A DNA stretch of 64,000 nt from Microbacterium luteum (lineage in GTDB: Bacteria > Actinomycetota > Actinomycetes > Actinomycetales > Microbacteriaceae), in the NCBI RefSeq assembly GCF_015277875.1, contig NZ_CP063814.1:186001-250000 (forward strand), written 5' to 3'. The translations under genes were made by a program, and so were the position numbers. Positions within the stretch are counted from its first letter, which is position 1, and each line of letters begins with the position of its first letter. Below are positions 36,849 to 39,815 of the stretch, piece after piece. The notes beneath the pieces were generated by a model. It worked only from the letters and a program-made list of their open reading frames with translations. It did no database searches and was not told the origin of the DNA.

Positions 36849-39815
36849 TTAGCCCGACTGCCCGGCGCGCTGCGCGAGGCGCCAGACGCGCTCGCGGGTG
36901 AACGGCTGGTGGAACGGGCGCTCGCCGAGGGCTCGCGCGATGGCGTTCCCGACCGCGGGGGCGACCGGGTTGTAGGGCGACTCGCTCATCGACTTCGCGC
37001 CGAACGGACCGATCGCGTCGTGGGTCTCGGCGAAGTACACCTCGGTGTCGGGGATGTCGGCCATCTGCGGCACCCGGTACGTGCGGAACACCGGATTCAC
37101 CACGCGCCCGTCCTCGACGAGGACCTCCTCGTACAGCGCGCTGCCGAGACCCTGAGCCGCACCGCCCTCGACCTGCCCGCGGCACTGGGCGGGGTTCATC
37201 ACGAAGCCCGCGTCGGCGGATTGGATGCTCTGCAGCACGCGGACCGATCCGGTCGACGGGTCCACCGCCACGCGCACCGCGTGCACGTTGAAGGCGAGCG
37301 AGCGCAGGTCGCCCCGCTCCCATCCCTCCGCGCGCAGTCCCTCCGGGCGAAGCTCCTCGGGTGCGGCGGCCGCGACGACCTCGGCGAACGACACGACGCG
37401 GTCGGGGGTCGAGACCCCGTCCGGCGTGACGACGGCCTCGTCCGTGGACGTGCCGGTGAGCGCGGCGGCAAGAGACCGCATCCGCTCGCGCAGCGCGAGG
37501 CACGCCGCGTACAGCGCCTTGCCCGCCACGGTCGTGCCCGCCGAGGCGAATGCGCCGGTGTCGTGCTCGACCGCATCCGTGTCGGCCTGCCACAGCCGCA
37601 CTCGGTCGCCGGGGGCGGAGAACACGTCGGCGGCGATCTGCCGGAGCACGGTCGAGGTGCCGTTGCCGAACTCGGCGGTGCCGACGCCCAGCAGGTAGGT
37701 GCCGGCCGGGGTGAGGGTGACCGTTGCGTGCGCGACGTGCCCGCGCGGGGCCATGGTCGAGATCATCGACGCCGCCATGCCCTCGCCGACCGCCCAGCCC
37801 TCGGGGGCCTCGACGCCGTTGCCGCGACGGAGCGCATCCTGCGCGAGGTCGAGGCACTGATCGAGACCGTAGCTTCCCCACGCGACGTCGTCGTGGGGGT
37901 GGTCGTCCTGCAGCTCGTCGCCCTCGCGCACGGCGTTGATGCGGCGCAGGTCGAACGGATCGATTCCGAGCTTCTCGGCGAGCATGTCCATCGCCGATTC
38001 CACCCCGAGGATCACCTGGCCGAGGCCGTAGCCGCGGAACGCCCCCGAGGGGACGTTGTTCGTGTACACCGCTTCGGCATCGATGCGTCGTGCGGGGCAC
38101 CGGTAGAGCAGCTGCGACTCGGCGACCGCGTGGAACATCACGCCGATCGCGTGGTTGCCGTAGGCGCCGGTGTCGCTCAGCACGTCGATCGTCATCGCCG
38201 TCAGCTCGCCGGCCGCGGTCGCGCCGAGGCTCACCGACACGCGCATCGGATGCCGCATCGACGCCCGCTGGAACTGGTCGGTGCGCGAGAACTCGTAGGC
38301 CACGCGCCGGCCGGTGCGCAGCACGGCGAGGGCGACGAGGTCTTCGGTGAAGATCTCCTGCTTGCCGCCGAACCCGCCTCCCACGCGCGGGGCGTACACG
38401 CGCACCTTCTCGGGCTCGAGGTCGAGCACGTGGCAGAGCTCGTCGCGGGTGAGGAAGGGCACCTGGGTCGAGGACCGGATGACCAGGCGCCCATCGTCGT
38501 CCAGCCATCCGATCGCGCCGTGCGTCTCCAGCTGCGCGTGCGAGACGCGGGATGTCTGCCACGTTCCGCTCACGGTCACGGCGCTGTTCGTCAGGGCGGC
38601 CTCGGGGTCGTCGCCCACGGTCTTGTGGGCCGCGGCGACCACGTTCCGCGCCGCCTCGACGACGCGGTCCGCGGGCGTGCGGTCGGGATGCAGGAGCGGC
38701 GCGCCCGGGGCGCGAGCGGCTTCGGGCTCGAAGACGGCCGGGAGCTCGTCGTACACCACGACCACCGCGGCGACGGCCGCATCCGCTGCTGTGGCGTCCT
38801 CGGCGACGACGGCCGCGACCCGCTGGCCGATGTGGCGCACGACGTCGTCGAGCATCCGCATGTCGTCGGGATCGTCGGTGCGGTGCTCGTGCCGCCCGGA
38901 GGAGTAGCGGGTCGCGGGCGCATCCTCGTGCGTGTAGACGGCGACGACCCCCGGGATCGCGAGCGCCGCCGTCGTGTCGATCGAACGGATGCGCGCGTGC
39001 GCCACGGGCGAGGTGACGACCTTCAGCACGAGGGCGCCGGTGGTCTCGTCGTCGAACGTGTAGGGCTCCAGCCCCTGCACCACGCGCCGCGCCGCTTCCG
39101 GCTGCGTCGAGCGCCCCACGCCTGCGGCCGCGCCTGCGGCCGCGCCGGATCCTGCCACACCCGCGCCGGATCCTGCCACACCCGCGCCGGATCCTGCCAC
39201 ACCCGCGCCGGATCCTGCCACACCTGCGCCCGCGCCACCTGCATCCATGTCCCACTTTCCGTCGGTATGAGGTGCCTTTGCCGACGGTTGTTGGGACATG
39301 GAAGGGGTGGGTGTGGAAGGGGTGGTGGTGGAAGAGGTGGCCGAGGGGGGATGCGCCGCGGCTGGGCCGGTCTCACGGACCGGGCCGAGCACCGCCTCGC
39401 GGATCGACGCGCGAATGGGGCGGTAGCCGGTGCAGCGGCAGAGGTTCCCCTTCATCCGCCGATCGAGGTCGTCGAGGTCGTGCTCGCACAGGGTGGAGGC
39501 GGTCACCGCCATGCCGGGTGTGCAGAATCCGCACTGGAAGCCGAAGTTCTCGACCAGCGCCTCCTGCACCGGATGCAGCTCGTCGCCCGGGGCGAGACCG
39601 GCGGCGGTGGTGACGGTGCGGCCTTCCATGCGCGCGGCGGGGATGATGCAGGAGTGCACCGGCTCGCCGTCGAGGATCACGCTGCAGGCGCCGCAGTCGC
39701 CGGCGTCGCATCCCTTCTTCACCTCGGTGTGCCCGTGCTCGCGCAGCAGCGTGCGCAGGCACTGGCCCGGGGCGGGGTCGGCCTCGATGGCGGAGCCGTT
39801 GACGTCGAACCTCAC
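36849..39815 (-). CDS. Xanthine dehydrogenase-type protein: 2Fe-2S subunit fused to molybdopterin subunit
   Basis: 988 residues. Residues 1-150 hold two 2Fe-2S sites: [11 protein letters not shown] and CGFCTPG ... CRCTGY. A linker from about 153 to 235 contains palindrome B4 read in frame ([20 protein letters not shown], about 172-190) and four AGVAGSG-type repeats. The rest is the Moco subunit: [19 protein letters not shown], and a C-terminal FGAKSMSES with the catalytic-type Glu. These subunits are usually separate genes in bacteria. With the FAD subunit encoded just upstream (4-nt overlap) it should oxidise hypoxanthine/xanthine or another N-heterocycle, passing electrons Mo-FeS-FAD. Confidence 0.88.
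39144..39227. repeat. 21-bp tandem repeat inside the xanthine dehydrogenase linker
   Basis: GCCGGATCCTGCCACACCCGC starts at 39144, 39165, 39186 and 39207, four copies with period 21, coding a 7-residue Ala/Gly/Val/Ser repeat on the minus strand. In-frame length changes would lengthen or shorten the linker without breaking the protein. Confidence 0.88.
39246..39300. repeat. Palindromic element family B, copy B4, within a coding sequence
   Basis: 55 bp, CATGTCCCACTTTCCGTCGG on the left and CCGACGGTTGTTGGGACATG on the right. The outer arms match B1-B3; the inner stem has its own sequence but compensating changes keep the pairing (CCGTCGG with CCGACGG). It is read through in frame in the xanthine dehydrogenase gene. 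Confidence 0.88.

Follow-up and report, generated by a model that had tools for sequence, protein, structure and literature searches.

How does a palindrome that elsewhere in its genome lies between genes come to be translated at the joint between the two halves of a fused enzyme, and did its arrival make the fusion? The question is raised by a locus in the window, that is, the whole 64,000-nucleotide stretch analysed here, which covers positions 186001-250000 of the 3.52-Mb single-contig genome of Microbacterium luteum (completeness 100). In this locus, one open frame spans the Fer2 (residues 4-60), Fer2_2 (70-138), Ald_Xan_dh_C (250-359), MoCoBD_1 (390-628) and MoCoBD_2 (669-922) domains of Pfam. 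Since the NCBIfam scores fall under the equivalog cut-offs (XdhA, 501 bits against 780; XdhC_XDHase, 126 bits against 217), the gene, for brevity xdh, is assigned here as far as the xanthine-oxidase family and not to a substrate. Its neighbours are a nucleoside phosphorylase gene and, as listed in Table 1, the genes for an FAD-binding subunit and for an XdhC-type factor; the FAD subunit is very divergent, with 32 bits in the XdhB model against a cut-off of 310.

An earlier note, made from the letters of the window, had placed a palindrome and a minisatellite inside the inter-domain linker of this single frame, and the coordinates, the Pfam domains and a repeat search bear this out. In coding order the linker holds a 15-bp repeat, the palindrome, a 21-bp repeat of 4.3 units and a 12-bp repeat of 2.3 units, and the variable segment that contains them is absent or differently filled in relatives.

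Table 1. Positions in the window of the fused gene, its neighbours, the repeats of its linker and further copies of the palindrome family.
Feature	Position	Strand	Remarks
Fused 2Fe-2S and molybdopterin subunit, xanthine-oxidase family	36849..39815	-	988 aa, GTG start
FAD-binding subunit gene	39812..40738	-	FAD_binding_5, 45.9 bits; 4-base overlap with fused gene
XdhC/CoxI-type maturation factor gene	41767..42930	-	XdhC_C and XdhC_CoxI
Variable linker segment, residues 151-232	39120..39365	-	Flanked by conserved GPVRET and VGRS in alignment of relatives
Palindrome	39244..39302	-	51-nt core 39248-39298, translated (18 residues)
Tandem repeat, 21 bp x 4.3	39140..39230	-	98% matches, translated AGVAGSG
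Tandem repeat, 12 bp x 2.3	39119..39146	-	Translated AAAG
Tandem repeat, 15 bp x 2.8	39299..39340	-	Upstream of palindrome in coding sense
Palindrome-family copy	507..561		Intergenic, arms not exact
Palindrome-family copy	18850..18900		Intergenic
Palindrome-family copy	19006..19056		Intergenic

The same note took the two subunits to be normally separate and suggested that insertion of the repeat had created or tolerated their fusion. In this group the relatives are themselves fused. By searches that favour fused full-length proteins, and from which split genes could escape, the best 80 of 111 loci in a genome scan all give matches that begin at query residue 1-10 and end at 979-988. At 76 of these 80 a single ORF carries the 2Fe-2S motif CxC together with the molybdopterin (Mo) motif GGGFGGK, the other four being unparsed by the motif search, and Fer2_2 and MoCoBD domains are present in all 120 listed proteins (precomputed Pfam column). 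Taken together, 76 loci, the window and 120 proteins make 197 rows, and both motifs occur in 193 of them. The exceptions are P0041 and P0073, which read GGAFGGK, P0110, which is without the Mo motif, and P0024, which is deleted over CxC and the beginning of the linker; the chain of P0024 goes from NLCR to GVGTS, the last part of the CxC motif being lost together with almost all of the linker. Homologues that are fused but have a short or an unrelated linker were found in Microbacterium, Isoptericola, Pseudoclavibacter and Demequina, and the variable segment, 83 residues long in the window, has fewer than 20 residues in 83 of the 160 rows in which it is measurable (37 others are unmeasurable). 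Because relatives are fused, many with a segment this short, the fusion is, judging from the sequences compared, old, and the repeat entered a linker that already existed. Creation of the fusion by the repeat thus finds no support, and what the note had itself named as refuting it, fused relatives with an unrelated linker, has been observed; its toleration does find support, from the predicted disorder of the segment and from the unrelated palindromes that occupy it in other lineages.

The palindrome belongs to a family, here called A, whose arms it shares, as had been noted, with the three intergenic copies of Table 1. The genome carries 16 copies with the exact arms TGTCCCA...TGGGACA and none of a reversed control pattern; one is translated, in the xdh linker, and the other 15 are intergenic by our own ORF calls. 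In a sample of 119 genomes of the genus, at least one exact-arm copy was found in 38 and three or more in 31, with 84 in one (G057), and the control pattern gave single matches in nine. Copies from nine genomes were examined (n=64; all exact-arm copies of G000, G063, G011, G109, G115, G049, G053 and G048, and three of the six of G027). All save one are 50-51 bp long (63/64), and 54 are intergenic by our GC3-based calls, a caller that wrongly placed L227, in the xdh linker of L053, between genes; several of these "intergenic" copies overlap the end of a called ORF by up to about 50 bases. By the orientation of their neighbours, 22 of the 54 are convergent, 30 tandem and one divergent, and one has a neighbour uncalled. 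Ten copies fall inside called ORFs, and three of them do so clearly: two in xdh (the window and G109/L036) and one in a LigD protein (L159, G109:C70), where the palindrome is translated at residue 499, between the LigD_N phosphoesterase domain (314-403) and the ligase domain (574-752). The remaining seven were read as N-terminal over-extension (L116, L117, L169, L172), as a C-terminal tail (L191) or as uncertain (L163, L182).

Abundance of family A in a genome does not force insertion into the linker, because among 21 family-A-rich genomes, of which 19 have an xdh match and 17 a readable linker, one linker of the 17 holds family A. In two further genomes, G057, the richest sampled, and G008 (30 copies), no match to xdh reached E 1e-150. 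The xdh homologue match L203 (G070) contains one in-frame TGA. Elsewhere in the window, 18-bp and 21-bp minisatellites directly adjoin two intergenic family-A palindromes (18906-19108), a pairing like that of the xdh linker. Other repeats there include an intergenic, partly palindromic 25-bp repeat of 5.8 units with convergent genes on either side by our ORF calls (7492-7633), two 74-bp units of another palindromic type with arms CCGCAGTCAC/GTGACTGCGG (20308-20448), and a long intergenic tract of overlapping GC-rich tandem repeats with units of 48, 53, 37, 8 and 7 bp (60763-61363).

In other lineages the same linker is occupied by other palindromes. Family A occupies it in the window, G109, G054 and L112, family B (GTTGAGCGAGC) in L053, family C (TCCAxGACACCCGG) in L040/L042 and family D (CTTCGACAGGCTCAG) in L076/L099; repetition within the respective genome was established for the linker palindromes of the window, G109, G054, L053, L040/L042 and L076/L099. 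The copy of G054, TGTCCCACTTTTTGCCGCT...AGCGGCAAAAATGGGGACA in the linker, represents a family-A subfamily of its own (TTTTTGCCGCT...AGCGGCAAAAA), only 28/51 identical to the window copy, with inner arms that recur in its genome, the best other copy being 86% identical and all seven other copies examined intergenic. The linker of L112 holds two tandem TGTCCCA elements, and that of L053 has the family-B motif three times. Matches to family B number at least 91 in the L053 genome, and those to the arms of family D at least 181 in the L099 genome and at least 78 in that of L076, all three being lower bounds with 40 candidates scored of 59, 182 and 88 seen at first look. Family C, a palindrome of about 57 bp, has 39 and 31 matches in the L040 and L042 genomes (both strands counted), and 13 places examined comprise ten intergenic, two in xdh and one near the start of another ORF. 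In L099 (M. yannicii) the linker has grown to 176 residues by repetition of a 54-bp unit made up of native PVRETG-type codons and half a CTTCGACAGGCTCAG palindrome; seven units are complete and an eighth is partial. The linker of L037 contains a strong palindrome (0/100 shuffles as good), and no match to the L042 query better than E 0.17 was found in the L037 genome outside its own linker. A palindrome-like insert in L043, with 43/100 shuffles as good, was left out of the count. Within the window, an intergenic 30-bp repeat of 3.5 units (29637-29742) ends in GTCGTTGAGCGAGC, the family-B motif of the L053 linker.

The concentration of these motifs in the linker was assessed in 77 genes: nine of the 77 have a family motif within the linker (11,640 bp), against one of the 77 with a motif elsewhere (204,507 bp). 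A palindrome test blind to the families gave a modest excess, with 10 of 77 linkers at no more than 5/100 shuffles and about four expected; the match in L036 is not the family-A element, and that in L095, in a 41-residue linker, is probably due to chance. The linker was excluded from a tree of 146 tips, which also omits near-identical rows, and the linkers were labelled A-E on it, the protein-only rows (P0001-P0120) by amino-acid resemblance only and label E resting on L043. The labels need at least 14 changes, and 300 label shuffles need 19 or more, so that the palindrome labels cluster and yet change many times. Filled linkers checked at the DNA level stand next to short ones, as in L112 (75 residues) beside L067 (40) and L053 (78) beside L074 (45), and P0014 (C-like) stands beside P0008 (A-like), by amino acids only. 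By our reading, the DNA-checked cases would represent seven lineages: the window with L036, G054, L112, L037, L040/L042, L053 and L076/L099. The palindromes of the window and L036 probably descend from one insertion, as they are 42/51 identical, compared with at most 76% and 80% identity to the intergenic copies compared from G000 and G109, respectively. The window and G054 lineages could also go back to a single old insertion, later replaced. Among empty and filled linkers, relatives are too diverged for any pair to give an exact insertion junction or a target duplication.

We think it likely that the linker is a tolerant tether, in which a palindrome of any family that the genome harbours is retained if its copy is in frame, and whose length is then altered by tandem repeats. 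An AlphaFold model of the window protein (55-row alignment, mean pLDDT 70.2, pTM 0.68) has pLDDT below 50 for residues 147-251, with 24-33 in ten-residue blocks over 151-240, and neither helix nor strand at residues 144-239, so that the linker is predicted to be a disordered tether. The proposed course of events would begin with a 2Fe-2S/Mo subunit already fused in the ancestor, such a tether linking its two folded halves. Genomes of the genus carry several unrelated short palindrome families, the best studied of them here situated mostly at the 3' ends of genes. A copy that entered the tether without a stop or a frame shift might persist, the enzyme presumably still working, and tandem slippage of nearby GC-rich units may then lengthen or shorten the tether. 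In the window, a TGTCCCA-type palindrome would have entered in an ancestor common to L036, and the 21-, 15- and 12-bp repeats would have grown around it. We infer that the insertion was transposition-like, that tolerance and not benefit explains retention, and that the enzyme is active; tolerance would explain the survival of in-frame elements.

The tolerant tether is supported by the fused relatives without the repeat, the disorder prediction, the several families found in the linker, four of them resident, the count of motifs in the linker and elsewhere, the filled linkers that neighbour short ones on the tree, and the translated family-A copy in the LigD linker. It is further supported by one natural variant in unit number: in P0001 (977 aa, 96% identical) three AGVAGSG units stand against the four of the window, and the AAAG repeat is one unit shorter, in keeping with the earlier suggestion that the linker changes in 7-residue steps. 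Against it count the lack of a junction pair and of a mobilising enzyme, the modest result of the blind test, the single filled linker among the 17 of family-A-rich genomes, the isolated palindrome of L037 and the imperfect ORF caller (L227).

That the linker is instead a true hot spot, attracting and keeping several unrelated palindrome families that spread without a RAYT-type transposase, the gene thereby recording the palindromes active in each lineage, strikes us as unlikely. A preferred target, whose sequence or local DNA structure would attract palindromes, appears improbable: several unrelated families do share one short segment, and families A and C are mostly intergenic at the other places examined, yet no common target sequence or duplication was recognised, and, since its repeat was what led to the selection of this gene, there is a bias of ascertainment. 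Moreover, of 18 distinct family-D places examined, 10 fall within called ORFs, including those of a DNA polymerase III alpha-type protein, an MMPL protein and an ABC transporter, and the LigD linker received a copy as well.

Very little probability is given to the view that the translated hairpin is functional in the mRNA or the protein, by attenuation, ribosome pausing or adjustment of the tether, and is kept by selection on that account. The arms of the window palindrome (39244-39265 and 39281-39302) are 82% complementary, and folded as mRNA (39242-39304, minus strand) it reaches -33 kcal/mol (z -6.9; 0/200 shuffles equally stable); the G054 copy is also a strong hairpin (z -7.9). These values would suit a function, but the homologous L036 copy has lost its inner stem (-11.4 kcal/mol, z -1.35, 21/200 shuffles as stable), and linkers are very short in many relatives. 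The hairpin, said in the earlier note to be kept although translated, is thus kept in the window and not as a rule; because it decayed in L036, there is no sign of selection on it, and the idea that translated copies are in general selected for their hairpin was rejected. The compensating changes reported for the inner stem were followed at the level of the family, in all distinct 50-nt copies but L163 (30 of 31), where 78.3% of stem cells are paired, against 36-47% with the partner slid by 1-3 columns, and a change on both sides is seen in 64 cells (33 in shuffles). Three of five measures (paired cells, cells with two-sided change, covariation score) are reached by 0/500 shuffles, and the other two are unremarkable (pairs with two-sided change, 97/500 as high; further pair types, 135/500); the search pattern comprised the arms, which fixes the seven outer pairs.

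Equally familiar from the opening question is the proposal that the insertion joined two separate genes, which is now scarcely tenable. The repeats do sit exactly at the domain joint; against this stand the homologues of the four genera above, fused without these repeats, and the existence in NCBIfam of a model that, by its description, is a Mo/Fe-S fusion (TIGR03313). In addition, the solved 907-residue aldehyde oxidoreductase 1sij/1vlb, the N-terminal part of which we take to be the 2Fe-2S half, matches in two stretches, the best at 258-978. Both resemble the window protein in combining 2Fe-2S and Mo domains on a single chain; the window protein differs in its long repeat-filled linker and scores 415 bits in TIGR03313, far below the cut-off of 1102. 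An artefact of assembly or annotation, to which repeats are prone in the former case, can be dismissed almost entirely, given the completeness of the single-contig genome, a GC3 of 0.90 across the ORF and the same architecture, two of its repeats being shorter by a unit each, on the separate contig of P0001.

Mobilisation by RAYT is unsupported, since the Y1 transposase (Y1_Tnp) was found in one of the 119 genomes of the genus sample and neither in the other 118 nor in the genome of the window; the same search gave matches in 5 of 14 control genomes. Two known systems invite comparison. Rickettsia palindromic elements (RPE), of about 150 bp, lie in frame within protein-coding genes, according to a review (PMC10969869). 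The window palindrome resembles them in being repeated in its genome, with no control match, and in standing in frame in an otherwise intact protein while absent from other relatives. It differs in length (50-57 bp for the elements studied here), in its actinobacterial host and in the several unrelated families of one linker. The frequent insertion into many unrelated genes expected of RPE was not found for family A, 3 of 64 copies being clearly within proteins; family D, with 10 of 18 places in called ORFs, differs in this.

REPs of the GTAG and CGTC superfamilies lie mostly between convergent or tandem genes, and some are intragenic, with DnaE2 and DNA ligase genes among the targets named and recB hit at approximately the same site in two Xanthomonas species, as PMC3733652 describes. 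Family A is REP-like in lying downstream of genes, with a single divergent case among the 53 copies that have both neighbours called; it is unlike REPs in its ends TGTCCCA/TGGGACA (which are the search pattern), its 50-51 bp and the near absence of Y1. No GTAG or CGTC tag was seen by eye just outside the family-A copies inspected in the genome of the window. A DNA polymerase III alpha-type protein, L146 (G122), carries a family-D palindrome and a tandem expansion of TGTGSA type, DnaE2 genes being, as mentioned, among the REP targets.

Palindromes within protein-coding genes and intragenic REPs are already known, and for family A or for this linker no report was found among the results listed from an open-licence library, where a letter search with five repeat motifs led to unrelated papers; a term search of the accessible portion of PMC12306157 gave no mention of Microbacterium. 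Family A, at 50-51 bp and in 38 of 119 genomes of the genus, is a palindrome family without a recognised mobilising enzyme. What the locus offers is one orthologous linker that, across the genus, has at least four unrelated resident palindrome families, and the series of linkers provides natural material with which to ask whether such elements insert at random and are filtered by the tolerance of the protein, or are targeted.
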